A stretch of 49,598 bases of DNA from Sporolactobacillus vineae DSM 21990 = SL153 (GTDB lineage Bacteria > Bacillota > Bacilli > Bacillales > Sporolactobacillaceae). Position 1 is the first letter of the stretch. Every line of letters starts with the position of its first letter. Below, piece by piece: positions 2,940-49,066 of the stretch. A program made the translations under genes and the position numbers. The stretch covers positions 1 to 49,598 of the forward strand of contig NZ_KB899056.1 in assembly GCF_000377985.1 (NCBI RefSeq), in the 5' to 3' direction. The notes below the pieces were generated by a model, which was not told the origin of the DNA, ran no database searches, and was given only the letters and a program-made list of their open reading frames with translations.

Positions 2940-3206
2940 CTAATTAATTGAACGGATAAATTCGATGACGAAGAGAGTAGCAATCAGAATCGTTTAAGCG
3001 AACCGGGATGATGAGAGCCGGTACGGGAATTGATTGTGAACCGCACTTCCGAGAAGGCGGCCTGAAGCATAAGGTAGGGTCGGCCGGGAACTCCCGTTAC
3101 AGAGTCTTAAGCAGATTCCCGAATTAAGGGAATAACCGGAGTGGTACCGCGGGCTATGTGATCAACGCTCGTCTCTTTTATCTAGTAAAAGAGGCGGGCG
3201 TTTTTT
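2940..3206 (+). promoter_or_regulatory. T-box leader, apparent arginine specifier (CGC)
   Basis: The leader has the order of a T-box: a Stem I region with GATGACGAAGAGAGTA (2964-2979) and an AGAG-containing arm near 3013, the 3' side of the specifier loop near 3038-3048, and the T-box sequence GTGGTACCGCGG (3141-3152) whose TGGT pairs with the tRNA acceptor end. Aligned by eye with the B. subtilis tyrS leader (GUAC-ACU), the specifier falls on CGC at 3042-3044 followed by A, an arginine codon. Uncharged tRNA-Arg would then stabilise the antiterminator and permit read-through into argC. T-box identity is near certain; the specifier call is a manual alignment supported by the downstream arginine genes. 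Confidence 0.9.
3164..3206 (+). terminator. T-box-controlled attenuator terminator
   Basis: A 17-bp stem (AACGCTCGTCTCTTTTA against TAAAAGAGGCGGGCGTT) with a small loop is followed by six T residues (3201-3206). It lies directly after the T-box sequence, as expected for the competing terminator. Confidence 0.92.
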
Positions 3207-3405
3207 ATTGTCTCCGTTGCTGCGGCAGGTCTCTGAAATGCAATGCTCCTGGACTAAGAAGGCAGCAGACACGTTGATAAGCCCGTGATAAAGGCGCTTT
3301 TCTACAGCGGCAATTCACTTCGCTGCCGCGGCAGTGCAGGAAAGGATATTTTACTATTTATTATTATTTGAAAAAGGCAAATGTTCATAACTGGAGGCTT
3401 TTCAG

Positions 3406-4443
3406 GTGAAAGCAGGTATTGTTGGCGCAAATGGATACAGCGGAATGGAACTGATCAGGCTGCTGAATAATCATCCGTCGGTCCGTGTGGAGATGCTTAT
3501 CTCGCATACGACTCAGGGGGAAGCGGCATCGGAAGTTCTGCCGCACTTAACGGGCATTCTGGATCAGCCGCTGGAGGCATTTGATCCGGATCAGCTGGCA
3601 GAACGCGTTGATGTGGTCTTCTTCGCCACTCCGGCAGGCGTCAGCAAAGATCTTCTTCCTGAGTGTCTGAAACGCGGTCTCATCTGCATCGATCTGTCGG
3701 GCGACTTTCGTCTGAAGAACCCCGGGGATTATGAAACATGGTATCATCACCCGGCGGCAGATCCCTCGATTCTACAGGATGCGGTTTACGGACTTTCCGA
3801 GGTCAACCGAAGGCAGATTGAGGGCGCACAATTCATTGCCAACCCCGGATGCTATCCGACGGCGAGTCTTCTGGGCCTTGCTCCTGCATTGAAAGACGGG
3901 GCCATTGATCCGGAATCAATCATCATCGACGGCAAGTCAGGGGTATCCGGTTCAGGCAGAAAAGCGGTCATCGGCAATCTGTTCAGTGAAGTGAATGAAA
4001 ATGTCAGGGCATATAAACTCGGCAGGCACCAGCATACACCGGAAATTGAGCAGGAAATTGCCGAGATTGGCGGGCAGGCTGCAGCGGTCACGCTGACGAC
4101 ACATGTCATCCCAATGACCCGGGGACTGATGACGACCATTTATGCCAGCCTGAAAAAAGGCTACTCATCCAAAGAGTTTCTTGAGATCTACCAGCGCTAT
4201 TATGAAAAATCGCCGTTCGTCCGCATCCGACCGCTCGGGACCTGGCCGGCAACCAAAGAGGTGCTTGGTTCAAACTACTGTGATATCGGTTTGAATGTGG
4301 ACGGCAGGACGCGAAGGCTGACCATTATCTCGGTCATCGACAATGTGGTTAAAGGCGCTGCAGGCCAGGCGATCCAGAATCTGAACATCATCAAGGGATG
4401 GGATGAACAGACGGGGCTGGGACTTAGTCCGGTCTATCCGTGA
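3406..4443 (+). CDS. argC: N-acetyl-gamma-glutamyl-phosphate reductase
   Basis: ArgC reduces N-acetyl-glutamyl phosphate to N-acetylglutamate semialdehyde with NADPH, the third step of arginine synthesis. The 345-residue protein opens with the nucleotide-binding GIVGANGYSG and carries the active-site motif ANPGCYPTA with Cys149. Length is normal. The GTG start at 3406 has TGGAGG eight bases upstream. It is the first gene of the operon, about 200 bases after the T-box terminator; the intervening stretch contains a perfect palindrome CTGCCGCGGCAG (3323-3334) but no reading frame I would call. argJ follows after 13 bases. Confidence 0.97.
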   Translation: MKAGIVGANGYSGMELIRLLNNHPSVRVEMLISHTTQGEAASEVLPHLTGILDQPLEAFDPDQLAERVDVVFFATPAGVSKDLLPECLKRGLICIDLSGDFRLKNPGDYETWYHHPAADPSILQDAVYGLSEVNRRQIEGAQFIANPGCYPTASLLGLAPALKDGAIDPESIIIDGKSGVSGSGRKAVIGNLFSEVNENVRAYKLGRHQHTPEIEQEIAEIGGQAAAVTLTTHVIPMTRGLMTTIYASLKKGYSSKEFLEIYQRYYEKSPFVRIRPLGTWPATKEVLGSNYCDIGLNVDGRTRRLTIISVIDNVVKGAAGQAIQNLNIIKGWDEQTGLGLSPVYP

Positions 4444-4456
4444 AAGGAAGATAAAA

Positions 4457-5683
4457 GTGGAAAAAATGATGGAACAGCAAATAAAATTAACAACGATCGA
4501 AAATGGCAGTGTCGGAACGCCGAAGGGCTACATTACCGGCGGTCAGAATATCGGCATGAGAAAGAGCAAACCGGATATGGGCTGGATTTATTCTCAGCAG
4601 CCGGCATCGGCAGCCGGCGTTTATACAACGAATCTTTTTCAGGCGGCACCGCTTCAAGTCAATCAGGCAAGCCTTAAAGAAGGCGGTATGCTTCAGGCCA
4701 TTCTGGTCAACACAGTCAGTGCCAACTCCTGTACCGGAGAGGAAGGTCTGAAGAACGCGTATACCACCCGTTCATGGATGGCGGAACATCTTGACCTCCC
4801 TGAACATCTTGTCGCGGTCGCTTCCACGGGCGTCATCGGGCTTCAGCTGCCGATGGATAAGATGAAAAAAGGCGTGGAAAATATTTCACTGAAGCATGCG
4901 GATGCTCCGTTCGAGAAAGCCATTCTGACAACCGACACACATACCAAACATCTGGCCGTCAGCTTCCAGATTGACGGAAAGACGGTGACGATCGGCGGTG
5001 CCTGCAAAGGATCCGGCATGATCAAGCCGAACATGGCGACGATGCTCGCTTTCGTGACCACCGATGCGGCAGTGGATGCCGGATCACTTCATCAGGCGTT
5101 GAAACAAGTCACGGACCGGACGTTCAACCGGATCACGGTAGATGGTGATACAAGCACCAATGATATGGTTCTGGTCATGGCCAACGGTATGGCGGGCAAC
5201 GCGATGCTGACGGATGCCCATCCGCAATGGGCCGTATTTGTTGCCGGGCTCAAAGCCGTCTGCCAGGGACTGGCCAAGTTGATCGCCGGTGACGGTGAAG
5301 GCGCGACGAAGCTGATTGAAGTTCAGGTAACCGGGGCAAAGGATGAACATGCTGCGGAAGTCATCAGCAAATCGATCGTCGGCTCAAGCCTTGTGAAAAC
5401 CGCTGTATTCGGCAGCGATGCCAACTGGGGCCGCGTGGTTTGCGCCATGGGTTATAGCGGCGAACCTTTTGATCCGGAAAAAGTGACGATGGGCATCGGC
5501 GACACGACCCTGTTTGTTAAAGGGATGCCGGTACCCTTTGATGAAGAAAAAGCAAAGGCACAGCTCGATAAGGATACTGTCGTGATCAAAGCGGATCTGG
5601 GAGAGGGAAACGGCGAAGCAGTCGCCTGGGGCTGTGATCTGACATACAACTACGTCAAAATCAATGCATCCTATCGTTCGTGA
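4457..5683 (+). CDS. argJ: Bifunctional glutamate N-acetyltransferase / ornithine acetyltransferase
   Basis: ArgJ moves the acetyl group from N-acetylornithine to glutamate and, when bifunctional, also uses acetyl-CoA, giving the cyclic arginine pathway. The 408-residue precursor contains KPNMATMLAF, where the family cleaves itself before Thr195 (codon 5039-5041), exposing the catalytic nucleophile and giving alpha and beta chains. The GTG at 4457 is preferred because AGGAAG lies six bases upstream; a nearby ATG (4466) is 15 bases from it. The presence of argJ and absence of argA or argE in the cluster fits recycling of the acetyl group. Bifunctionality cannot be read from sequence by eye. 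Confidence 0.96.
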   Translation: MEKMMEQQIKLTTIENGSVGTPKGYITGGQNIGMRKSKPDMGWIYSQQPASAAGVYTTNLFQAAPLQVNQASLKEGGMLQAILVNTVSANSCTGEEGLKNAYTTRSWMAEHLDLPEHLVAVASTGVIGLQLPMDKMKKGVENISLKHADAPFEKAILTTDTHTKHLAVSFQIDGKTVTIGGACKGSGMIKPNMATMLAFVTTDAAVDAGSLHQALKQVTDRTFNRITVDGDTSTNDMVLVMANGMAGNAMLTDAHPQWAVFVAGLKAVCQGLAKLIAGDGEGATKLIEVQVTGAKDEHAAEVISKSIVGSSLVKTAVFGSDANWGRVVCAMGYSGEPFDPEKVTMGIGDTTLFVKGMPVPFDEEKAKAQLDKDTVVIKADLGEGNGEAVAWGCDLTYNYVKINASYRS

Positions 5684-5710
5684 AATCGGAAAGTGATTCG
5701 GGAGGATAAA

Positions 5711-6514
5711 ATGAACCAATATCTGATTATCAAATGCGGCGGTTCGGTCTTTGACCGCTTAACACCAGATTTTTTCAAAAGCATTCGGGCGATTCAGTCT
5801 GAAGGCGAATGGAAACCGGTCATTGTCCACGGCGGCGGGCCGGCAATTTCCAGAATGCTGAAAAAGATGCAGATCCCGACCGCTTTCCATAACGGGCTGC
5901 GGGTGACGAGTAAAGACGTCCTGAGTGTCGCGGAAATGGTTCTCAGCGGTTCGATGAACAAACAACTGGTCGCAGATCTCAGTGCAGCCGGAGCGAAAGC
6001 TGTCGGACTGAGCGGAATTGACGGCCATACGCTCATGGCGAAACCGTGCACGGATCCGGAACTGGGGTACGTCGGCGAAGTTGCTTCGGCTGACCCGGAA
6101 CTAATCACCTGCCTGTGCGGACAGGGCTACATCCCGGTCATCTCACCGATTTCCATGGATGCGGCCGGTCAGCATTACAACATTAATGCCGACCATGCTG
6201 CCGCAGCGATCGCTTCGTCATTAAACGGAAAACTATGCTTTATCAGCGATGTTCCCGGTATACTGGTCGAACAGAACGGGAAGCTGAAGAAACTGGCAAA
6301 GGTTTCCGATCTGGAAATTGCCAGTCTGATTGAAAACAAAGAGATTAACGGCGGTATGGTTCCGAAAGTCAAAGCTGCCGTCGACAGTCTCCGGCAGCAT
6401 GTCCGGGAAGTTGTGATTGTCAACGGCATGATGCCGGAGTGTCTGATTGATTATACACGAGGTGCCGAAGTCGGTACCCGGATTTTCCTTGAAGGGGAGG
6501 CTCTCCATGCTTAA
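5711..6514 (+). CDS. argB: Acetylglutamate kinase
   Basis: ArgB phosphorylates N-acetylglutamate. The 267-residue protein has amino acid kinase family features: IIKCGGSVF at the N-terminus, HGGGPAIS (substrate and nucleotide loop), and GGMVPKVKAA near the C-terminus. It starts at the ATG at 5711 with GGAGGA five bases upstream, 27 bases after argJ. It lacks the long N-terminal helix usually seen in hexameric arginine-inhibited kinases, so it is probably the dimeric type; that is inferred from length only. Its last eight bases overlap argD. Confidence 0.97.
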   Translation: MNQYLIIKCGGSVFDRLTPDFFKSIRAIQSEGEWKPVIVHGGGPAISRMLKKMQIPTAFHNGLRVTSKDVLSVAEMVLSGSMNKQLVADLSAAGAKAVGLSGIDGHTLMAKPCTDPELGYVGEVASADPELITCLCGQGYIPVISPISMDAAGQHYNINADHAAAAIASSLNGKLCFISDVPGILVEQNGKLKKLAKVSDLEIASLIENKEINGGMVPKVKAAVDSLRQHVREVVIVNGMMPECLIDYTRGAEVGTRIFLEGEALHA

Positions 6515-7703
6515 CACAGAATCTGTTCAAAAAATGTCTCCGGTCATGTCTGCATACGGCCGTTTTCCGCTGAAGATCGTCAAAGGAAAGGGCTGCTATG
6601 TCTGGGATGACACGGGTAAGAAATACCTTGATTTTACGGCAGGCATCGCTGTACTGGCGCTGGGCCACGTTCCCGATGCGGTGGAGGAAGTACTGAAGAA
6701 ACAGCTTGATACGCTCTGGCACTGTTCCAATCTCTTTCATATTCCCTCTCAGGAAAAACTCGCCGGCATGCTGACGTCACTGACTGATTGCGATCAGGTG
6801 TTCTTTTGCAACAGCGGTGCGGAAGCTAATGAGGGCGCCATTAAACTGGCCCGCCTTTATGCCCGTAAGATCAAAGGCAAAAAAGACGGCCACATCGTGA
6901 CGTTCAGCCATTCGTTTCACGGCCGGACAATGGCTACGCTGACGGCAACGGCCCAGAAGAAGATACAGGATGGTTTCGAACCGCTCGTTCCCGGATTCAA
7001 GTATCTGACGTATAACAGTCCGGAGGCGATCCGGGAGCTTGAGAAAGATGACGGCTGCATCGCCGTTCTGCTCGAAATGGTTCAGGGTGAAGGCGGCGTG
7101 ATTCCGGCGGAGCAAGGCTGGGTTACAGAGCTCAGTAAAGTGTGCCATGAGAAGGGCATTCTGCTGATGGTCGACGAAGTGCAGACCGGCATCGGCCGGA
7201 CGGGTACCCTGTTCGCCTATCAGCAATACGGGATCAGCCCGGATGTAGTGACGATGGCCAAGGCACTGGGTTCGGGCATCCCGATCGGCGCATTCATGGC
7301 CAAAAAAGAAGTGTCGCGGGTGATCATACCCGGAACGCATGGATCGACGTTCGGCGGCAATCCCCTGGCAACGACTGCCGGCGTGGCCACGCTGGAAACT
7401 TTTAAAAAGGAACATGTGCTGGAACATTGCGCTCAGAGCGCAAAGTATCTGAACGGAAAACTTCTGGAATTGAAGAATAAACATCCTGAGGCAATTGCTG
7501 ACGTACGCGGAAAGGGGCTTCTGATTGGCGTTGAAACCACATTCCCGGCGATTAATGTTGTGACGGCGCTCAGGGAACAGCATCAGGTTCTCGTCCTGAC
7601 TGCAGGAGATAAAGTATTGCGGATTCTGCCGCCGCTGATTGTTGAAAAACCGGAAATCGACGGGTTCATCCAGGCGCTGGACGATGTACTGAAAAATCAC
7701 TGA
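6507..7703 (+). CDS. argD: Acetylornithine aminotransferase
   Basis: ArgD is a class III pyridoxal-phosphate aminotransferase that converts N-acetylglutamate semialdehyde to N-acetylornithine using glutamate. The 398-residue protein has the expected blocks: NSGAEANEGAIKLAR, SFHGRTMATL, MVDEVQTGIGRTG, and the PLP lysine Lys252 in TMAKALGSG. The ATG at 6507 follows GGGGAGG and overlaps the end of argB by eight bases, which points to translational coupling. Members of this family can also act on succinylornithine or other omega-amino acids; the operon settles the assignment. Confidence 0.96.
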   Translation: MLNTESVQKMSPVMSAYGRFPLKIVKGKGCYVWDDTGKKYLDFTAGIAVLALGHVPDAVEEVLKKQLDTLWHCSNLFHIPSQEKLAGMLTSLTDCDQVFFCNSGAEANEGAIKLARLYARKIKGKKDGHIVTFSHSFHGRTMATLTATAQKKIQDGFEPLVPGFKYLTYNSPEAIRELEKDDGCIAVLLEMVQGEGGVIPAEQGWVTELSKVCHEKGILLMVDEVQTGIGRTGTLFAYQQYGISPDVVTMAKALGSGIPIGAFMAKKEVSRVIIPGTHGSTFGGNPLATTAGVATLETFKKEHVLEHCAQSAKYLNGKLLELKNKHPEAIADVRGKGLLIGVETTFPAINVVTALREQHQVLVLTAGDKVLRILPPLIVEKPEIDGFIQALDDVLKNH

Positions 7704-7719
7704 AAGGGAGGTGCCGGCG

Positions 7720-8808
7720 ATGAAGAAAGGTTATCTGATTCTGGAGTCAGGCAAATGCTTCCCGGGGGTACTTGTCGGCAGTCCTAAATCGGTGATCGGT
7801 GAAATTGTGTTCAATACAAGCATGACCGGCTATCAGGAAATTATGACGGATCCTTCTTATGCGGGACAGATCATGACCTTCTGTTATCCGCTGATCGGCA
7901 ATTACGGAATCAATCTTTCCGACAATGAGAAAAGCCGCATCAGCATGCAGGCTGCCGTTTTCAGTACCCTGTGTGAGCGTCCGAGCCACTATCAGTCGGT
8001 TAAGACGGTGGATCAGTGGCTGAAAGAAGAGGGTATTCCCGGAATTGCCAATGTGGATACGCGTGCGGTTGTCCGGACGGTTCGGAAGAAAGGAACGATG
8101 AAGGCAGCCATCAGTGATCACCCGGACGCCTCATTAATTGACTGGAGCTTCCCCGTTTCCCGCCATGTCGTCCGGAAAGTTTCGGCATCTTCACCAAAAA
8201 CTTATGAGGGTGCCGGCCCGCATGTTGTATTGATCGATTACGGGTATAAAAAATCGATGCTGAGTGCACTGCTTTCCGCCGGTTGCAAGGTAACCGTGGT
8301 TCCTTATAACATGCCGTTTACGAAAATTGCCGCTTTGAATCCGGACGGCGTGATGCTGAGCAACGGTCCCGGCGATCCAGAGGAACTGAGCAGCCAGTAC
8401 GGGGAAATCAAAAAAATCACCGCTCATTTTCCGACACTGGGCATCTGTCTTGGCCATCAGCTGATCGCACTGGCCTATGGCGCAAAAACCGAAAAGCTGC
8501 TTTTCGGGCACCGTGGCGCCAATCATCCGGTCAGAGACCGGGACACCGGAAAGGTCTGGATCACTTCCCAGAACCACAGCTATGTGGTGAAGAAAGACAG
8601 CCTCGACAGCCGAGTCTTTACCGTCACCTATGAGAATGTCAACGACGGGTCCGTGGAAGGGCTGAGACATCGCTATCTTCCGATTGAAACGGTTCAGTTT
8701 CATCCTGAAGCCCATCCGGGACCGGATGATACGCATTTTATCTTTGAACAATTTATCGACATGATCAAACAGAGCAAGGGTGAGGTCAGCCATGCCGCTA
8801 CGTACTGA
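7720..8808 (+). CDS. carA: Carbamoyl-phosphate synthase small (glutaminase) subunit, arginine operon copy
   Basis: CarA hydrolyses glutamine and passes ammonia to CarB. The 362-residue protein has the small-subunit N-terminal domain (GEIVFNTSMTGYQEIMTDPSYAGQ) and a C-terminal class I amidotransferase domain with the nucleophile Cys243 in GICLGHQ and the His-Glu pair in FHPEAHPGP. The start is the ATG at 7720, eight bases after AGGGAGG; a GTG at 7711 overlaps that site and is unlikely. It sits 16 bases after argD. Its position matches the arginine-specific carA of B. subtilis, which implies a second, pyrimidine-linked synthase elsewhere; that copy is not in the window. Confidence 0.96.
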   Translation: MKKGYLILESGKCFPGVLVGSPKSVIGEIVFNTSMTGYQEIMTDPSYAGQIMTFCYPLIGNYGINLSDNEKSRISMQAAVFSTLCERPSHYQSVKTVDQWLKEEGIPGIANVDTRAVVRTVRKKGTMKAAISDHPDASLIDWSFPVSRHVVRKVSASSPKTYEGAGPHVVLIDYGYKKSMLSALLSAGCKVTVVPYNMPFTKIAALNPDGVMLSNGPGDPEELSSQYGEIKKITAHFPTLGICLGHQLIALAYGAKTEKLLFGHRGANHPVRDRDTGKVWITSQNHSYVVKKDSLDSRVFTVTYENVNDGSVEGLRHRYLPIETVQFHPEAHPGPDDTHFIFEQFIDMIKQSKGEVSHAATY

Positions 8809-11800
8809 TATTAAGAAAGTGCTTGTTATCGGATCCGGACCGATTGTGATCGGCCAGGCTGCCGAATTCGATTATGCCGGAACTCAGGCCTGCCTGGCGC
8901 TCAAAGAAGAGGGCATTAAGGTCGTTCTGGTGAACAATAATCCGGCAACGATTATGACTGATGATCCTATCGCCGACCGAACTTATCTTGAGCCGCTGAC
9001 TGTTCCGGCGATTGAAAAAATCATCAGCCGGGAACGGCCGGATGGCCTGATTGGGACACTCGGCGGCCAGACGGGGCTCAATCTTGCCGTGGAACTTTAT
9101 GAGCAGGGCATTCTGGCTAAATATGGTGTGGAACTGCTGGGCACTTCGGTGGCATCGATTCAGCACGGAGAAGACCGGGAACTTTTCAAAAAACTGATGC
9201 TTGAGATTCATGAGCCCGTGCCTGAGTCAAGAATTATCCGCGACTATAATGCCGGGCTCGCGTTCACCGAGGCGATCGGTTATCCGGTGATTATCCGTCC
9301 GGCCTATACTCTGGGCGGCTCCGGCGGCGGATTTGCCAATAACCGGGCTGAACTCGACCTGGTTCTGCACCGCGGGCTGAATCTCAGTCCGATTCATGAA
9401 GTACTGATCGAGAGAAGCATCAGGGGCTGGAAAGAAATCGAATACGAAGTCATGCGCGATGCTAATGATACGTGCATTATTGTCTGCAACATGGAAAATG
9501 TTGACCCGGTCGGCGTACATACGGGGGACAGCGTCGTTGTCGCTCCGTCGCAGACGCTCTCCGATGTTCAGTACCAGATGCTTCGCAATGCTTCAGTTAA
9601 AATTATCCGGGCCCTGAAAATTGTCGGCGGCTGCAACATTCAGTTTGCGCTTAACCCGGCATCTGATGAGTACGCGATCATTGAAGTGAACCCGCGGGTC
9701 AGCCGCTCATCGGCACTTGCCTCCAAGGCAACCGGCTATCCGATTGCCCGGGTGGCCGCCAAGTGTGCGGTCGGATTCCATCTCGATGAAATCCTGAATC
9801 CGATCACCGGGACAACCTATGCTTCCTTTGAACCGGCGATTGATTATCTTGTTGTTAAAATGCCACGCTTTCCTTTTGATAAATTCACGGAAGCCGACCA
9901 CAGCCTGGGCACTCAGATGAAGGCGACCGGTGAAGTCATGGCCATCGACCGGACCTTTGAAGGTGCACTGAACAAGGGCGTCCGCTCAATGGAGATGGGT
10001 TTTACCGGACTGGACCGCAGGGCGGATCACGACCGGACTGACGAGGACTTAAAGCAGCAGCTGACAACGGCAACGGATCTGAGACTGTTTGCGATTGCCG
10101 AACTGATCCGCCGCGGCGTCACGCTGAAAGAGATTCACAGTCTGACCGCCATCGACTACTGGTTCCTGGACGGGATCAAGAATTTGATTGATCTTGAGCA
10201 TCAGATTCAGGCACAGAAGTGGGATCAGATTTCCGATGAACTGCTGCAGCATGCCAAACAGATGAATATCGGCGATCGTCGCCTTGCCGAACTGTCCGGT
10301 GTTACGGAATCTGATGTCCGTAAACGGAGAAAAGAAGCAGGCCTGATTCCTTCCTACCATCTCGTCGACACCTGTGCCGGGGAATTCGAGGCACAGACGC
10401 CGTACTACTATTCAACCTGGCTGGGCGAGGATGAAGCGGCGGTCAGCGATCAGCCGAAGATCCTGATCATCGGCTCAGGCCCGATCCGGATCGGTCAAGG
10501 TATCGAGTTTGACTACTGTTCCGTTCAGGCGACACTTGCTGTCAAAAAGTCCGGTTATAAAGCGATTGTGATCAACAATAATCCGGAAACCGTCAGCACG
10601 GATTATTCCGTGGCGGATCGTCTCTATTTTGAACCGCTGGCGGTTGAAGATATTTTAAATGTTGCCGAAAAGGAACACGTGCAGGGTGCGCTGGTTCAGT
10701 TCGGCGGCCAGACGGCAGTCAATGTTGCCGAGGCTCTGGAGCGTGCAGGGATCCTAGTTCTGGGGACATCGATCTCCGGAATCGACAAGCTGGAAGACCG
10801 GGAACAATTTTATCAGCTGCTGACGGAACTGGATATTCCGCATATCCGCGGTCTGAGTGTCGATCATCTCAGCGAGCTGGCTGAAGCCGGAAACCGGCTG
10901 GGTTATCCGATTCTTGTCCGGCCGTCATTTGTCATCGGCGGCCAGTCGATGTTTCTCTTCCATCGGCCTGAAGAGCTGGATGCCTACGTGCATAGTGAAC
11001 ATCATTTCGGCGCTCAGTCATTTCCCCTGCTGGTGGATCGCTATATGCCCGGCACGGAGTGTGAAGTCGATGCGATCAGCGATGGCGAAGAGGTGTGCAT
11101 TCCCGGAGTTTTTGAACATATCGAGCGGGCCGGAGTCCATTCCGGGGACAGCATCGCCGTTTTCCCGTCGTATACGCTGCCGGACAGTGTGAAGCAGGAA
11201 ATTGAGAAGGATACGGTGAAGATCTGCCGCCGTGTGAAAGTGACCGGTCTCGTGAACATTCAGTTTGTCATTGCGGACGGAACGGTCTATGTCCTTGAAG
11301 TGAATCCGCGGGCCTCGCGCACGGTACCGATCGTCAGTAAAGTGACCGGTATTCCGATGGTTGAAGAAGCGGTACGCATTCAGCTTGGTCAGGCTCCGGG
11401 TCACCGGGAAAGATTTCAGGGCCTCTGTCCGCCGCCCGGGTTTTTTGCGGTCAAGGCCCCGGTCTTCTCATTTACTAAACTGCCGGGCGTCGATCCTGTA
11501 CTTGGTCCGGAAATGAAATCGACCGGTGAACAGCTGGGCATGGGGCGCGCAGTAAGGGAAGCATTTATCAAAGCCTGCTTTTCCGGGCGGCAGAGTCCGT
11601 TCGCAAATCCAGAAAAAAAAGATCTGGTTCTGTGTTCCGTTGCCGACAGGGCAAGAAAAGAAAGTCTGGGTACCGCCCGGCAGCTTCAGTCCAGAGGGTT
11701 TACCATCCTTGCCACTAAGGACACGGCCGGATTCTATCAGACAGCCGGATTGGCTACGGAAAGCATCGGTGAAAGCGAAGACGGCCTGAAGAAGCTGCTT

Positions 11801-12028
11801 TCAGGTAACCGGGTCGCTGCCGTAATCAATGTTCCGACCGCGGGACGCAACCGGCGCTCATTCGGCTTTGAACTGAGGCTGCTGGCGCTCCGGTACAATA
11901 TACCGCTGTACACCTGCCTGGATACGGTGAATGCTGTGCTGGCAGCGGCGGACGCGACCGGGGACCTGCCGGTGCACACACTTGATGAATATCGTCAATT
12001 AAATGTTGTGATTGAGAAGGGGAAGTGA
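8792..12028 (+). CDS. carB: Carbamoyl-phosphate synthase large subunit, arginine operon copy
   Basis: CarB makes carbamoyl phosphate from bicarbonate, ammonia and two ATP. The 1078-residue protein shows the internal duplication of the family: LVIGSGPIVIGQAAEFDYAG near the N-terminus and IIGSGPIRIGQGIEFDYCS around residue 560 each begin an ATP-grasp half, with EVNPRVSRSSALASKATGYP and EVNPRASRTVPIVSKVTGIP in the two halves. The last 140 residues are an MGS-like regulatory domain. Length is like E. coli CarB and longer than the 1030-residue B. subtilis arginine-specific CarB. The ATG at 8792 has GGTGAGG upstream and overlaps carA by 17 bases. Confidence 0.97.
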   Translation: MPLRTDIKKVLVIGSGPIVIGQAAEFDYAGTQACLALKEEGIKVVLVNNNPATIMTDDPIADRTYLEPLTVPAIEKIISRERPDGLIGTLGGQTGLNLAVELYEQGILAKYGVELLGTSVASIQHGEDRELFKKLMLEIHEPVPESRIIRDYNAGLAFTEAIGYPVIIRPAYTLGGSGGGFANNRAELDLVLHRGLNLSPIHEVLIERSIRGWKEIEYEVMRDANDTCIIVCNMENVDPVGVHTGDSVVVAPSQTLSDVQYQMLRNASVKIIRALKIVGGCNIQFALNPASDEYAIIEVNPRVSRSSALASKATGYPIARVAAKCAVGFHLDEILNPITGTTYASFEPAIDYLVVKMPRFPFDKFTEADHSLGTQMKATGEVMAIDRTFEGALNKGVRSMEMGFTGLDRRADHDRTDEDLKQQLTTATDLRLFAIAELIRRGVTLKEIHSLTAIDYWFLDGIKNLIDLEHQIQAQKWDQISDELLQHAKQMNIGDRRLAELSGVTESDVRKRRKEAGLIPSYHLVDTCAGEFEAQTPYYYSTWLGEDEAAVSDQPKILIIGSGPIRIGQGIEFDYCSVQATLAVKKSGYKAIVINNNPETVSTDYSVADRLYFEPLAVEDILNVAEKEHVQGALVQFGGQTAVNVAEALERAGILVLGTSISGIDKLEDREQFYQLLTELDIPHIRGLSVDHLSELAEAGNRLGYPILVRPSFVIGGQSMFLFHRPEELDAYVHSEHHFGAQSFPLLVDRYMPGTECEVDAISDGEEVCIPGVFEHIERAGVHSGDSIAVFPSYTLPDSVKQEIEKDTVKICRRVKVTGLVNIQFVIADGTVYVLEVNPRASRTVPIVSKVTGIPMVEEAVRIQLGQAPGHRERFQGLCPPPGFFAVKAPVFSFTKLPGVDPVLGPEMKSTGEQLGMGRAVREAFIKACFSGRQSPFANPEKKDLVLCSVADRARKESLGTARQLQSRGFTILATKDTAGFYQTAGLATESIGESEDGLKKLLSGNRVAAVINVPTAGRNRRSFGFELRLLALRYNIPLYTCLDTVNAVLAAADATGDLPVHTLDEYRQLNVVIEKGK

Positions 12029-12031
12029 CAG

Positions 12032-12997
12032 ATGGTGACGACGGACAGAGAAACAGCATTTGCATTAAAGGGAAGAGATTACCTGACCATTGCCGACTTT
12101 ACAACTGATGAACTGCATCTGCTCTTGAAGCAGGCGGCGGATATGAAGGCCTTAACGAAGAAACATATTCCGCATCCCTATCTGAGCGGGAAAACACTGG
12201 CGATGATTTTTGAAAAATCATCGACTCGGACAAGAGTGTCGTTTGAAGTCGGCATGTACCAGCTGGGCGGTTCCGCTTTGTTCCTGAGCAGCCGCGACAT
12301 GCAGCTGGGCCGCGGGGAGACGATCGCCGACACGGCGAAGGTCCTGTCACGGTTTGTGGACGGCATTATGATTCGCACATTTGAACATCAAAAGGTAGTT
12401 GGACTGGCGGAACAGGCCAGTGTCCCGGTGATCAACGGACTGACCGATGAGCATCATCCGACACAGGTACTTGCAGACCTGTTGACGATCTATGAACATG
12501 AAGGCCGGCTCAAGGGGCTGAAAGCCTGCTTCATCGGCGACGGGTATAATAATATGGCCCACTCACTGCTTGAGGGTGCCGCTGCTGTCGGTATGGATCT
12601 CACGGTTGCGTCACCTGAAGGTTATGAGCCGGATCAGAAAATTTTTAAAGCTGCGGAAGCACGTGCAGAAGAGAACGGCTGTCACGTAGCTGTGACGCAT
12701 TCCCCTCAGGAAGCAGTTGAAGGCTGTGATATTATCATTACGGATACCTGGCTGAGCATGGGCGATGAGAATGAGCAGGAAAAACGGCTGCATGATTTTC
12801 AGGGCTACCAGGTGAATGACACGCTTGTTGCCCGGGCAAAACCCGACTATCTGTTCCTGCACTGTCTCCCGGCGCATCGCGGCGAAGAAGTCGCGGCCAG
12901 TGTGATCGACGGCCCACACTCGATTGTCTTCGATGAGGCGGAGAACAGGCTTCACGCCCATAAAGCAATTCTCAAATGTCTTCTGGAAAGCAATTAA
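12032..12997 (+). CDS. argF: Ornithine carbamoyltransferase
   Basis: ArgF joins carbamoyl phosphate to ornithine, giving citrulline. The 321-residue protein carries the carbamoyl phosphate motif [13 protein letters not shown], the DEHHPTQ motif, and the ornithine and catalytic motif [11 protein letters not shown]. It starts at the ATG at 12032, three bases after the carB stop, with GGGGAAG upstream. Catabolic carbamoyltransferase (ArcB) is excluded by the operon, which has no arcA or arcC. Confidence 0.96.
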
Positions 12998-13028
12998 CCT
13001 TTTTTCTACTACTAAGGAGGAATTCATA

Positions 13029-14288
13029 ATGGCTAAAGAAAAGATTGTGCTCGCGTATTCCGGTGGTCTGGACACGTCGGTATGCATCAAGTGGCTGCAG
13101 GATAAATACAATTACGACGTCATCGCACTCAGCATCAATGTCGGCGAGGGCAAGGATCTGGCGAAGGTCAAGCAAAAGGCGCTGGATGTCGGTGCGATTA
13201 AGTCCTATGTGGTCGATGCCGAAGATCTGCTGGCGGACGGCTATCTGACTTCCGCCCTGAAAGCAAATGCTTTGTACGAAGGCGTCTATCCGCTGTCTTC
13301 AGGGCTTTCCCGGCCGCTGATCGCCAAGCTGCTCGTCGATGTCGCCCATAAAGAAGGTGCAGTGGCCGTTGCTCATGGCTGCACAGGCAAAGGAAACGAT
13401 CAGGTCCGGTTCGAGGTCTCGATACAGGCACTGGATCCGACACTGAAGGTCGTTGCTCCGGTGCGTGAATGGGGTATGACCCGTGACGAAGAGATTAAAT
13501 ATGCGGCCAAGAACGGGATTCCGATTCCTGTCGATCTGGACAATCCTTTCTCGATCGATGCGAATATCTGGGGCCGTGCCTGCGAAGCCGGTGTGCTAGA
13601 GAACCCGTGGAACGAAGCACCTGAAGCGGCTTTCGACTGGACCAATCCGATTGAAAAGACGCCGGATACGCCGGAGTATATCGAAATTTCTTTTGAAAAA
13701 GGGATTCCGGTCGCACTCAATGGGGAAAAAATGGCTTATGTCGAGATCATCAAAAAACTGAATAAACTGGGCGGACTGCACGGCGTCGGCCGGATCGACC
13801 ACGTCGAAAACCGTCTGGTCGGTATCAAGTCGCGTGAAGTTTATGAAAACCCGGCTGCACTGATCCTGATCAATGCCCACCAGGCGCTTGAGACGATCAC
13901 GCTGACCAAAGAAGTATCGAAATTAAAACCGCTGATCGATAAAGAAATGTCGCAGGTTATCTATGACGGCCTCTGGTACTCACCGATCAGAGAAGCACTG
14001 ATGGCATTTGTCGACCAGACGCAGGAAGTTGTGTCCGGCAAGGTCAAAGTGAAACTGTTCAAAGGCAATCATATTGTTGTCGGCCGTGCATCCGCCAAGA
14101 GCCTGTACAATGAGAAGCTGGCAACCTACACCAAGGGCGATGCGTTCGATCATAATGCAGCGGTCGGCTTCATTAAACTTTGGGGGCTGCCGACGAAGGT
14201 GAACGCCGAAGTGCACAAAGACGATGCGGAAACGGAGGCTAATCATGGCGAAACTGTGGGGCGGCCGGTTTACGAAATCAACCAATAA
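13029..14288 (+). CDS. argG: Argininosuccinate synthase
   Basis: ArgG condenses citrulline and aspartate with ATP. The 419-residue protein begins [19 protein letters not shown] (N-type pyrophosphatase ATP loop) and contains [15 protein letters not shown]. The ATG at 13029 has a near-perfect AAGGAGGAATT site, 31 bases after argF. The C-terminus is unusual: the 403-residue B. subtilis enzyme ends about where [15 protein letters not shown] ends here, while this frame runs on about 20 residues and overlaps argH by 44 bases. In B. subtilis argGH is a separate operon, so its place behind argF is a local arrangement. Confidence 0.96.
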
Positions 14289-15621
14289 GCTGGTTGATGC
14301 GTACACCGCATCCATTTCCTACGATCAGGAACTGGCGAAAGAAGATATCGAAGGCAGCCTGGCCCATGTGAAAATGCTGGGTGAGTGCGGCATCGTGTCG
14401 CCTGAAGAGTCGCAAAAAATTCAGGAGGGTCTGCAAACCATCCTGAAAAAGGTCGAAGCAGGCGAAGCTGAATTTTCTGTCGACCAGGAAGACATCCACA
14501 TGAATATCGAACGGATGCTGATCGACGAGATCGGTCCGGTCGGCGGAAAACTGCACACCGGGCGTAGCCGCAACGATCAGGTGGCTACAGATATGCACCT
14601 GTATCTGCGCAATAAAACGCAGCTGCTGATCTCACTGCTTGAAGACGTCCAGTCTGCGCTGCTTGAAAAGGCGAAGGGCAATGTCGCTACCATCCTGCCC
14701 GGTTACACGCATCTGCAGCGGGCGCAGCCCATCTCTTTCGCCCATCATCTGCTTGCCTATTTCTGGATGTTCGAGCGGGACAAGAGCCGATTGCGGGACA
14801 GTCAGAAACGGATCAATATTCTTCCGCTCGGTGCCGGTGCGCTCGCCGGGACGACATTTCCGATCAATCGCCGCCGGGTGGCGGAACTGCTCGACTTTGA
14901 CGACATCTATCCGAACAGCATGGATGCCGTCAGCGACCGGGACTTTGTGGTCGAAGCGCTGTCCGACTGTTCGCTGATCATGGTGCATCTGTCGCGCCTG
15001 TCGGAAGAGATGGTGCTCTGGAGCAGTCAGGAATTCCAGTTTATCGAACTGGATGACGCATTCTGCACCGGTTCGAGTATCATGCCGCAGAAGAAGAATC
15101 CGGACGTTTCCGAGCTGCTCCGCGGCAAGACCGGCCGTGTCTTCGGCCACCTGATCGGCCTGCTGACGGTTCTGAAAGGCCTTCCGCTTGCTTACAACAA
15201 GGATATGCAGGAAGACAAGGAGGGCATTTTTGATACGGTCAAAACGCTGACCGGGGCACTCCGCCTACTGGCGCCGATTCTCGAAACAATGACGGTTAAA
15301 AAGGACCGGATGCGTCATGCCGTCGAGAAGGATTACTCCAATGCGACCGACATCGCCGACTATCTGGCGCGAAAAGGCATGCCTTTTCGCGAAGCACATG
15401 CGATTACGGGTAAAATGGTGCTTTATGCCATTGAACATAAAAAGTATTTGCTTGACCTCGGACTTGATGAGTACAAACAGTTCAGTCCGTTGTTTGAAGA
15501 AGATATTTTTGAAGATCTGAAACCGGAAAATGTCATGCGGGCCCGTGAGAGCGAAGGCGGCACCGCACCGGATCAGGTTGAAAAGCAGATTGCCCTGGCC
15601 GAAGCCAGACTGAACAGCTGA
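14245..15621 (+). CDS. argH: Argininosuccinate lyase
   Basis: ArgH splits argininosuccinate into arginine and fumarate, the last step of the pathway. The 458-residue protein has [11 protein letters not shown] at the start, [14 protein letters not shown], and the fumarase/aspartase superfamily signature [12 protein letters not shown] holding the catalytic serine loop. The ATG at 14245 follows GGAGG at 14234-14238, and both lie inside the 3' end of argG, so translation of the two is probably coupled. The operon ends with the terminator at 15751-15787. Confidence 0.97.
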
Positions 15622-15750: not shown

Positions 15751-15787
15751 ACACCGGATACCCAAATGTGTATTCGGTGTTTTTTTG
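15751..15787 (+). terminator. Intrinsic terminator of the arginine operon
   Basis: ACACCGGATAC pairs with GTATTCGGTGT (one wobble) and is followed by seven T residues, about 130 bases after the argH stop. Confidence 0.9.
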
Positions 15788-15868
15788 GCTGCTGTGTTAA
15801 GATTAGATCGGATCGTTATTTCCGGAGCCTGCCGTCACGATCAATCAAATGAGAAGGGTTTGCTTTCT

Positions 15869-17098
15869 TTGCCGCATGCTGTCTCTGATTTACAGATAAA
15901 CAGAATAAAAGGACCGGAACGCCGGTTGCACGCACATCAGATAATCCTGTTAGGCGCACTCAGTGCTTTCGGTCCGCTCTCTATGGATCTGTATCTTCCG
16001 TCACTGCCGACGCTGACTTCAGATTTACATACAGCTGCCTCATATGGGCAGTTGAGCATTACGGCCTGTCTGATCGGGCTGGCTGCCGGTCAGATGCTGA
16101 TCGGCCCTTTCAGTGACAACCATGGACGAAGGGGACCGCTACTCACCGGGCTAATCGTGTTTGCGCTGACTTCATTCTTATGTGCTCAAGTCTCATCAAT
16201 CACACTGCTGATCGTGCTGAGATTTCTTCAGGGCCTTGCAGGTTCCGCCGGGCTGGTGATTTCACGGGCGATCGCGCGTGATTTGTATTCGGGTACCAAA
16301 CTGACCAAATTTTTCTCGATGCTGATGGCGATCAACGGGATTTTCCCGATCCTTGCCCCGATTCTCGGCGGACTGATTCTACGGGCTGCGTCCTGGCGCG
16401 GTGTTTTTATCGTACTGACGGGAATCGGAATTGTTCTGTTTCTCGGCACACTGATCAGCCTTCCGGAAACACTGCCGGTGAAAAAGAGGATCAGCGGCGG
16501 CATGCATGCGACCGTGTCGGAGATGGGCAGGATCTGCCGGGACAGAACGTTTATCGGCTATGCGATTGTGCTGGGCCTGATCATGGGCGCAATGTTCTGC
16601 TACATATCCGGGTCTTCGTTCGTGCTTCAGGACATGTTCGGCGTGTCTCCGCTATTCTTCAGCTTGTTTTTTGCGACAAATGGTCTCGGGATCGTGGCCA
16701 TGTCGCAGCTGGCCGGACCTTTATCGGAAAAAATGGGTGAGAAAAAGGCCTTGAAAATCGGCGTGATGATCGCGGCAGCCGGCAGTATCATCCTCTTCTC
16801 CGGACTGCTTCTTGATCCGCCGCGCCTGATCGCAGTCATGCTGCCCTTGTTTTTTGTCGTTTCCATGGTCGGTCTGGTGAATACGACCGCCTTTTCACTG
16901 GCGATGCAATCGCAGGGGCGTGCCGCCGGTACCGCATCCGCCATTCTCGGGCTTGGCATGAATCTCGTAGGCGGCCTTTTATCCCCGCTGGTCGGCCTGG
17001 GCGGGACAGGCACATATTTCCCGATGGCACTGTTGATCCTTTTATGTGACGTCGGTGCCTTGATTGTTTATCTATTCTGGATGAAAAAAGAAGCATAA
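15869..17098 (+). CDS. Bcr/CflA family multidrug MFS transporter
   Basis: The 409-residue protein is a 12-helix major facilitator of the drug:H+ antiporter type. LGALSAFGPLSMDLYLPSLPTL near the N-terminus is the typical Bcr/CflA opening, and GPFSDNHGRRGPLL is motif A. Members export bicyclomycin, chloramphenicol, sulfonamides or metabolites such as cysteine; the substrate here is unknown. I choose the TTG at 15869, which has GAGAAGG 11 bases upstream; the frame stays open further 5' to 15785 within the arg terminator, so an earlier start is unlikely. It is followed after 27 bases by the small gene at 17126. Confidence 0.85.
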   Translation: MPHAVSDLQINRIKGPERRLHAHQIILLGALSAFGPLSMDLYLPSLPTLTSDLHTAASYGQLSITACLIGLAAGQMLIGPFSDNHGRRGPLLTGLIVFALTSFLCAQVSSITLLIVLRFLQGLAGSAGLVISRAIARDLYSGTKLTKFFSMLMAINGIFPILAPILGGLILRAASWRGVFIVLTGIGIVLFLGTLISLPETLPVKKRISGGMHATVSEMGRICRDRTFIGYAIVLGLIMGAMFCYISGSSFVLQDMFGVSPLFFSLFFATNGLGIVAMSQLAGPLSEKMGEKKALKIGVMIAAAGSIILFSGLLLDPPRLIAVMLPLFFVVSMVGLVNTTAFSLAMQSQGRAAGTASAILGLGMNLVGGLLSPLVGLGGTGTYFPMALLILLCDVGALIVYLFWMKKEA

Positions 17099-25420: not shown

Positions 25421-25502
25421 CGTGACACGTCTCCTTGAAAAGATGTGCCTGATGATGTAAACTAGCAAACAATCAATTGAATAAAATCTGAACGTTTTAC
25501 TT

Positions 25503-25617
25503 TCTTATCAAGAGAAGTCGAGGGACTGGCCCGATGACGCTTCAGCAACCGTTGCCTGACAGGACGACATGGTGCTAATTCCAGCAGACGCAGAAGTGCG
25601 GCTGAGGGATAAGAAGA
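25503..25617 (+). promoter_or_regulatory. SAM-I riboswitch (S box)
   Basis: The conserved blocks are all present in order: CTTATCAAGAG at 25503, GAGGGACTGGCCCGATGA, GCTTCAGCAACC, GGTGCTAATTCCAGCAG, and the closing GAGGGATAAGAAG ending at about 25617, which pairs with the first block (P1). Binding of S-adenosylmethionine favours the terminator that follows, switching off yitJ when SAM is plentiful. B. subtilis yitJ has the same control. Confidence 0.97.
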
Positions 25618-25845: not shown

Positions 25846-27723
25846 ATGAAAGCACCTATAAAGATGAAAGTACCCATATTGGAGGAGCTTAAGAACAGAA
25901 TTCTGATTGCAGACGGTGCGATGGGGACGCTGCTCTACTCGTATGGCATTGATCGATGTTTTGAAGAATTGAACCGGTCGCATCCGGAAGAAATTGTCCG
26001 TGTGCATCGGGCCTATATTGACGCCGGGGCGGATGTCATCCAGACAAATACGTATGGTGCCAACGCGATCAAACTGGCACGGTACGGGCTGGAGCATGAG
26101 GTGAGGCCGTTCAATAAAGAGGCGGTCGCCCTGGCGAAGCATGCAGCAGAACCGGGAACGTATATTTTAGGAACTATCGGGGGCATCCGCGGATTCCAGG
26201 AACCCTCACTTCAGCTTGATGAAATCAGGCAGAGCTTCAGGCAGCAGGCTGAGGTACTGCTTTCAGAGAATGTCGACGGACTGCTGCTGGAAACGTATTA
26301 TGACCTTGATGAACTGAAAGAAGTACTGAAAATCGCCAGGAAAATGACATCGCTTCCGATCATCACCCATGTGTCGATGCAGGAACCCGGCGTGCTGATC
26401 AACGGGATGCCGCTGGCGGATGCCCTCAGTCAGCTTGAAGATCTGGGTGCGGATATTGTCGGAACGAATTGCCGTCTCGGCCCGTTTCATATGATCGAAT
26501 CGTTGAAGGGCATCCCCCTTCCGAAGCACGCTTTTCTTTCCGCTTATCCGAACGGCAGTCTTCCGGACTATCGCGACGGCAAGCTCTACTACCAGACCGA
26601 ACCGGGTTATTTCAAAAAATATGCGGCGGAATTTCGTAACGAAGGGATCCGGCTGCTTGGCGGTTGCTGCGGCACAACGCCAGTGCATATCCGGGCGTTC
26701 AAAGAAGGTATTTCCGAACTGGAACCGCTGACGGTCAAGAACGTCAACCGGTCGTCCGACAGAATTGTGATTGCGGATAACCATCCGGACACGCCGCTGT
26801 ATGACAAAGCCAGGAGCGGCCGGTCGGTTTTTGTTGAATTTGATACGCCACGGAATCTGAGTACAGACAACTTCTTTAAAGGTGTGCGTGCACTTGAACA
26901 TGCCGGTGCCGACGCGATCACGATGGCGGATAATTCACTGGCATCGCCGCGGATCAGCAATACGGCCATGGCTCGGCTGATTAAGGAAGAATTCACGATT
27001 CCCCCGCTTGTTCATCTGACCTGCCGCGACCGGAATCTGATCGGACTTCAGTCCCACCTGATGGGGCTGGATGTGCTGGGCCTTCATGACGTGCTGATTG
27101 TCACCGGCGACCCGACGAAAATCGGGGACTTCCCCGGAGCTACATCCGTTTACGACGTTTCATCCATGCAGCTGATCCATCTTGTGAAACAGTTCAACCG
27201 CGGTATTTCTTACTCGGGGCGCAGCCTCAGACGGCCGACGCATTTTCGCGTGGCTGCGGCCTTCAATCCGAACGTACGGAATCTGGACCGTGCCGTTCAG
27301 CGTTTAAAGAGAAAAATCGAGTGCGGTGCAGACTACTTCATCTCGCAGCCTGTGTTTGACCGTGAACGTATCGTTGCCATCAGTCAGGCACTCCGCGGTG
27401 TGACGACGCCGGTATATCTCGGAATTATGCCACTGACCTCATCCAGAAATGCTGAATTTCTTCATAACGAAGTACCGGGAATGTCGCTGCCTGATGATGT
27501 CCGCAGCAGGATGGCCGCCGCGAAGTCCAAAGAAGAAGCGCGCCGGACGAGTCTTCAGATCGCGAAAGAACTGATTGATACGGCCATGGAATATTTCCGG
27601 GGGATTTACCTCATTACACCGATGACGCATTATTCCATGACCGTTGAATTACTTCACTATATCAAGGAAAGGGAGCGTCGGCTGGCTTCCGGTACGGTGC
27701 AGGTGAGCCACCGCATCCGGTAA
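25846..27723 (+). CDS. yitJ: Bifunctional homocysteine S-methyltransferase / 5,10-methylenetetrahydrofolate reductase (YitJ-type)
   Basis: The 625-residue fusion has two parts. Residues 1-310 are a homocysteine S-methyltransferase barrel with ILIADGAMGTLLYSYGI at the start, GTNCRLGP, and the zinc-binding GGCCGTTP near residue 280. Residues 325-610 are a MetF-type reductase (VFVEFDTPRN, HLTCRDRNLIGLQSHLMGL, LIVTGDP, GADYFISQPVF, YLGIMPL). Together they would make methyl-THF and use it to methylate homocysteine. The ATG at 25846 follows GGGAGTGGGG. Expression is under the SAM-I riboswitch. Length is close to B. subtilis YitJ (612). Confidence 0.95.
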   Translation: MKAPIKMKVPILEELKNRILIADGAMGTLLYSYGIDRCFEELNRSHPEEIVRVHRAYIDAGADVIQTNTYGANAIKLARYGLEHEVRPFNKEAVALAKHAAEPGTYILGTIGGIRGFQEPSLQLDEIRQSFRQQAEVLLSENVDGLLLETYYDLDELKEVLKIARKMTSLPIITHVSMQEPGVLINGMPLADALSQLEDLGADIVGTNCRLGPFHMIESLKGIPLPKHAFLSAYPNGSLPDYRDGKLYYQTEPGYFKKYAAEFRNEGIRLLGGCCGTTPVHIRAFKEGISELEPLTVKNVNRSSDRIVIADNHPDTPLYDKARSGRSVFVEFDTPRNLSTDNFFKGVRALEHAGADAITMADNSLASPRISNTAMARLIKEEFTIPPLVHLTCRDRNLIGLQSHLMGLDVLGLHDVLIVTGDPTKIGDFPGATSVYDVSSMQLIHLVKQFNRGISYSGRSLRRPTHFRVAAAFNPNVRNLDRAVQRLKRKIECGADYFISQPVFDRERIVAISQALRGVTTPVYLGIMPLTSSRNAEFLHNEVPGMSLPDDVRSRMAAAKSKEEARRTSLQIAKELIDTAMEYFRGIYLITPMTHYSMTVELLHYIKERERRLASGTVQVSHRIR

Positions 27724-48973: not shown

Positions 48974-48984
48974 TTTATTTTTTT

Positions 48985-49058
<74 letters not shown>

Positions 49059-49066
49059 TGGCTTTT

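Follow-up and report, generated by a model that had tools for sequence, protein, structure and literature searches.

Sporolactobacillus vineae carries the genes for arginine biosynthesis in a single run that begins behind a leader resembling a T-box riboswitch, which raises the question of how this pathway is controlled in the organism and in its family. In Bacillus subtilis the argCJBD-carAB-argF operon is under the control of the AhrC/ArgR repressor. The order of genes from argC to argF is the same in both organisms, whereas in S. vineae argG and argH continue the same gene run, a T-box precedes it, and no match to ArgR is found. The window analysed here, 49,598 nucleotides in length, is contig C15 of a 2.86-Mb genome assembled in 45 contigs and 99.77% complete. 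Nine genes lie on its forward strand between 3406 and 15621: argC (3406-4443; TIGR01850, 450.8 bits), argJ (open reading frame 4403-5683; TIGR00120), argB (5693-6514; TIGR00761), argD (open reading frame 6447-7703; TIGR00707), carA (7711-8808; TIGR01368), carB (8780-12028; TIGR01369), argF (12032-12997; TIGR00658), argG (open reading frame 12924-14288; TIGR00032), and argH (14224-15621; TIGR00838). The profile match of argJ starts at residue 35 and its true start is therefore probably later than the open reading frame implies; the true starts of argD and argG are probably later as well. The genes argC through argH would be transcribed as one operon. The next gene on the same strand, at 15785-17098, encodes an efflux protein of the Bcr/CflA-type MFS class. 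Of 13 loci with named relatives of ArgC, 11 are from Sporolactobacillus (S. shoreae, 80% identity) and 2 from Heliobacterium. An exact pattern scan of Heliobacterium loci L028 and L029 found no T-box motif at a distance of up to 1.5 kb from argC.

The original prediction, made for positions 2940-3206, was that a full T-box leader and attenuator precede argC, and it proposed a search with the Rfam model and a comparison of argC leaders as checks. The Rfam search bears this out: RF00230 matches the forward strand at 2956-3179, from Stem I to the antiterminator, over model positions 1-219 of 219, and scores 121.4 bits where 93 is the gathering score (E 1.8e-26). Upstream, at 2880-2907, is a σ70-type promoter (TTGACA-N16-TATAAT) that matches the consensus at 12 of 12 positions, and a promoter of the TTGAC..TATAAT type lies ahead of the T-box in 14 of 15 loci of the genus, the S. 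vineae locus counted in. The Rfam alignment places the antiterminator, formed by GGAGUGGUACCGCGGG with CUCGUCUC, at 3138-3176, and within it the UGGU at 3142-3145 is complementary to the ACCA end of tRNA-Arg. An intrinsic terminator with its T tail follows at 3164-3208, with 18 pairs (3164-3202) closing a 3-nt loop, and the region 3100-3212 folds with a z of -3.99 relative to shuffled sequences. The CUCGUCUC strand is common to the terminator and the antiterminator, so arranged that the two structures would be expected to compete in the cell.

This structure is conserved among related leaders. When 28 of the 36 related T-box copies are aligned, the consensus fold has 45 pairs, of which 22 show compensatory change, defined as at least one change on both sides with pairing kept. 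The RNAalifold consensus differs from a pure T-box fold, in that 9 of the 45 pairs are long-range and fall outside the Rfam structure; 8 of these nine are invariant and none has a compensatory change, and they therefore add nothing to the argument. No other T-box reached the gathering score in a Rfam search of the window, and the S. vineae leader holds a single match rather than a tandem pair. Neither folding nor conservation within the genus supports any further T-box or conserved element in the stretch that separates the terminator from argC: the fold of 3205-3410 has a z of -1.35, with 15 of 200 shuffles as good, and mean identity in 25-base bins is 0.07-0.51 across 3207-3381 as compared with 0.57-0.92 across 2957-3206, a difference that leaves no second element indicated. 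The same comparison bears on the idea that this T-box is a degenerate, non-functional remnant left by descent. Such a remnant would be compatible with a case for function that is drawn from sequence, yet the specifier, the UGGU, the compensatory pairs and the terminator have been kept throughout the family while the stretch immediately downstream has not, and we regard decay as exceedingly improbable.

Among the other riboswitches of this genome, a SAM riboswitch (RF00162, 87.8 bits) occupies 25502-25615 of the window, before a gene encoding a homocysteine S-methyltransferase/MTHFR fusion (25846-27723), and a T-box with an apparent ATG (Met) specifier (L004:1501-1769, corresponding to G000:C4:123131-123399) lies before a SAM hydroxide adenosyltransferase gene (1797-2681).

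The identity of the amino acid that the leader senses depends on the specifier codon in Stem I, which the Rfam model leaves unmarked. The conserved GAA is ambiguous as an anchor by itself and permits two frames, CCG (proline) at 3041-3043, directly after the GAA, or CGC (arginine) at 3042-3044 of the forward strand. The genome as a whole contains 16 T-box matches, and the first downstream gene could be assigned for all 15 of those other than the argC leader. A rule by which the codon is followed by 6 nt and then GA[AG] fits 11 of the 12 clear T-boxes, giving a codon that matches the gene for Cys, Tyr, Phe, Ile, Thr, Ser, Trp, Leu (leuS), Pro, Leu (leuA) and Gly, and fails at valS. Under this rule the hisS T-box reads GAC (Asp) and is not decisive, and two further T-boxes precede genes whose names do not fix an amino acid, namely those for the SAM hydroxide adenosyltransferase (ATG) and a class V aminotransferase (AGC). 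In 7 of the 16 strings two or more GA[AG] triplets follow, and the closing one was chosen by eye; for ten T-boxes, the argC leader among them, the choice coincides with the triplet that the Rfam alignment puts where Stem I ends. At argC the rule gives CGC, the codon named in the original prediction and one that fits the regulated pathway.

Comparison across the Sporolactobacillaceae leads to the same codon. The 26 genomes of the family contain 36 T-box copies, which share the string GAA-N-CG(C/G)-A-CTT, in which the codon is CGC in 34 copies and CGG in 2, both of them arginine codons, and the base that follows is A in all 36, while the base that precedes is C in 22, G in 7 and A in 7. The constancy of CGC/CGG next to a variable preceding base settles the arginine frame. 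Both CGG copies form the tandem pair of G003, a genome in which a tRNA-Arg(CCG) is encoded. The alternative, that the T-box reads proline and so ties arginine synthesis to proline, takes its appeal from the position directly after the GAA, which is that of the specifier in eight T-boxes of the same genome. Read in that frame, however, the 36 leaders would specify Pro, Ala or Thr according to the first base, the spacing to GA[AG] would be 7 and not 6, and the base after CCG would be C, whereas a purine follows 13 of 14 rule-placed codons of other T-boxes (valS and the argC leader left out), the Cys T-box being the exception. Moreover, proB of this genome has a T-box of its own with a CCU specifier. 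On the variation among leaders and the wrong spacing we rejected the proline codon, a very improbable reading. The short motif GAANCGNACTT is not significant on its own (1 match against 0.34 expected, with at least one in 31 of 100 shuffles), and the claim therefore rests on the whole structure and on the relatives.

The predicted effector, tRNA-Arg(ACG), is encoded on the forward strand at 48984-49059 of the window (tRNA gene call; RF00005 match 48985-49058). CGC is read by tRNA-Arg(ACG) through inosine, and the A that precedes CCA in this tRNA stands opposite the U of UGGU, as had been proposed; this tRNA is thus still the likely partner. Its presence in the window, which had been offered as a further point in favor, is real and carries no weight as evidence, because a second gene of identical sequence is found on contig C10 and because A precedes the CCA position in all five tRNA-Arg genes (two ACG, with UCU, CCU and CCG) found in the window and the other stretches scanned. 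The argument from the discriminator base is therefore right but not selective. Across the family this base varies. Among the 11 of 26 genomes for which the base before CCA of tRNA-Arg(ACG) was obtained, it is G in G001, G002, G004, G005, G007, G008, G023 and G025, A in S. vineae itself (G000) and in G003, and one of each in G006. The T-box sequence is UGGU in 33 of 36 copies; the three that have UGGC are the gene-proximal copies of the tandem leaders in G001, G007 and G025 (L038, L043 and L137). UGGC pairs with a G before CCA, as against the G-U wobble that UGGU makes with the same base, and the two sensors of these tandem leaders may be tuned differently. Within a tRNA cluster of the S. vineae genome (L064:289-361, contig C6), ARAGORN called a tRNA-SeC(tca) that has no RF00005 match and whose anticodon loop seems shortened; it may be a decayed tRNA gene.

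Taken together, these features identify the leader almost certainly as a canonical T-box riboswitch of the transcriptional-attenuation type, specific for arginine and heading argCJBD-carAB-argFGH. RNA polymerase would start from the promoter at 2880-2907 and make the leader, in which Stem I would present CGC to tRNA-Arg(ACG). When arginine is scarce and this tRNA uncharged, its ACCA end would pair with UGGU and stabilize an antiterminator that retains the CUCGUCUC strand, and transcription would read through into the nine genes. When the tRNA is charged, the terminator would form instead and the operon would be turned off.

The arrangement recurs across the family. argC scores over the cut-off in all 26 Sporolactobacillaceae genomes and an arginine T-box lies upstream of it in every one, directly before argC in 25. 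In the remaining genome (G007) an ArgH-like open reading frame, recognized by eye, precedes argC and two arginine T-boxes lie farther upstream; argG presumably lies between these and argC. No T-box was found within about 1.1 kb before argC in 40 ArgR-positive genomes representing 40 other families of the order, nor in a further 20 from other orders (G182 and 19 that have ArgR), which makes 0 of 59 ArgR-positive genomes, one per family, for the interval covered; a T-box located farther upstream in an operon would be missed. The view that T-box control of argC is unusual for the order is upheld by this survey. The sole riboswitch among the 40 controls of the order is of the SAM class; it lies about 0.7 kb upstream of argC in G056 (L124:249-354) and probably belongs to another gene.

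The family is further divided by the number of its T-boxes. Sixteen genomes, 15 of the genus of S. vineae and 1 of another genus, have a single T-box, and 10 of the 26, in 8 genera, have tandem T-boxes; these counts are of copies with E below 0.001, a threshold that decayed second copies would escape, and the contig of G009 starts 92 bases before its T-box, where a second copy would be out of view. Tandem T-boxes are known in Bacillota for other amino acids, and the arginine leaders resemble them in having two full-length copies in series, with a terminator hairpin and T run in all 20 copies. In a tree of the 36 leaders the 16 single T-boxes fall on one side of a branch (98/89). The tree leaves upstream and downstream copies unresolved and joins long branches, and we therefore make no claim as to one duplication or many. 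Several peculiarities were observed in individual loci. A T-box match in G011 is stretched to 403 nt (L053:2680-3082), which points to an insertion within the leader; in genus g9 the tandem arginine T-boxes are preceded by matches to the Bacillaceae-1 small RNA (L040:3625-3692; L056:259-326 and 480-547); and argC of G006, a single-contig genome that is 75% complete, is in two adjacent pieces in different frames (L057 and L061).

The distribution of the repressor is the converse of that of the T-box. Profile searches of the S. vineae genome found no match to either ArgR domain, PF01316 or PF02863, and the system is therefore not one in which a T-box has been added to ArgR. Likewise, both PF01316 (over the cut-off) and PF02863 were found in 0 of the 26 Sporolactobacillaceae genomes. 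Matches to PF01316 below the cut-off in G001 and G014 were rejected as ArgR candidates, being to an integrase/transposase and a DeoR-type protein. The same PF01316 search was positive in 115 of 120 genomes of the order and in 196 of 200 of the class. The five negatives of the order are four Sporolactobacillaceae and G058, which has no argC over the cut-off; the four of the class are two members of the S. vineae genus, G151 (84% complete, with no argC over the cut-off), and G182. The last of these has argC with no T-box within about 1.1 kb, but its assembly is in 280 contigs and its congener G164 has ArgR, and its lack of ArgR may therefore be a gap.

Gene order argues that the absence from the Sporolactobacillaceae is not of this kind. 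In five of five ArgR-positive controls the order, read by eye, is tlyA-argR-recN, with ArgR confirmed by profile in one of these loci. recN is present in all 26 Sporolactobacillaceae genomes (in G006 as pieces under the cut-off), and Dxs-like and TlyA-like sequences lie directly before it. In the 26 family loci, as judged by eye from translated open reading frames, tlyA adjoins recN with at most 337 nt between them and no argR in the interval; TlyA was confirmed with a NCBIfam profile for the S. vineae locus. Since argR is missing at the very position that it occupies in the controls, a gap in the assembly would not account for its absence. It is conceivable that the T-box acts jointly with an arginine-responsive regulator, of the ArgR type or another, that escaped the searches: a strongly diverged protein could elude profiles aimed at the ArgR domains, and CodY or other global regulators might contribute. 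The uniform failure of a search that succeeds in nearly all other genomes of the order and class, together with the closed tlyA-recN interval, makes joint control unlikely. We infer that no other arginine-responsive regulator acts on the operon and that the T-box has very probably replaced the ArgR/AhrC repressor in the Sporolactobacillaceae.

T-box control of argC is, as such, not new. A review of riboswitches in Clostridioides difficile lists T-box leaders ahead of the argC gene CD2034, for N-acetyl-gamma-glutamyl-phosphate reductase, and the argG gene CD1785, for argininosuccinate synthase (PMC11477304, Table 2). The likeness to S. vineae lies in the placement of a T-box before argC. C. difficile, a member of the Clostridia, is listed with separate T-boxes before argC and argG, whereas in S. 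vineae one T-box heads nine genes, eight other genera of the Sporolactobacillaceae carry tandem copies, and the family is without detectable ArgR. The main text of a 2025 survey of contiguous riboswitches (PMC12452182) contains neither 'argC' nor 'Sporolactobacill', and that of a 2008 T-box survey (PMC2494555) is without the word arginine and has argS once, in a legend. Among the matches listed in a search of the open-licence literature, supplementary files aside, there was no report on an arginine T-box of Sporolactobacillus. Within the open-licence literature searched, neither the family-wide combination of ArgR loss and T-box control nor the occurrence of arginine T-boxes in tandem seems to have been reported.

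The apparent exchange of ArgR for a T-box is thus of more interest than the T-box itself. From the genome comparisons we lean, by a narrow margin, toward a history in which ArgR was lost in the ancestor of the Sporolactobacillaceae and the arginine operon came entirely under the control of tRNA sensing. The two serial arginine T-boxes of many members, each with its terminator, would then constitute consecutive checkpoints, both of which have to be cleared, and the sensors would have been retuned along with the tRNA: in the codon, where one genome has CGG in both copies, and in the acceptor pairing, where three genomes with a G ahead of CCA in tRNA-Arg have UGGC in their second copy. Free arginine is the signal for ArgR, and the charging of tRNA is that for a T-box; the two wirings of the same pathway are therefore directly comparable. 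If borne out, the Sporolactobacillaceae would provide a clean natural case in which an RNA sensor has taken over from a protein repressor; the tlyA-recN interval retains no argR, and the family-wide T-box can be set against ArgR-bearing neighbors. Species of Sporolactobacillus are used in lactic acid fermentation, and the way in which they switch arginine synthesis may be of practical use there.
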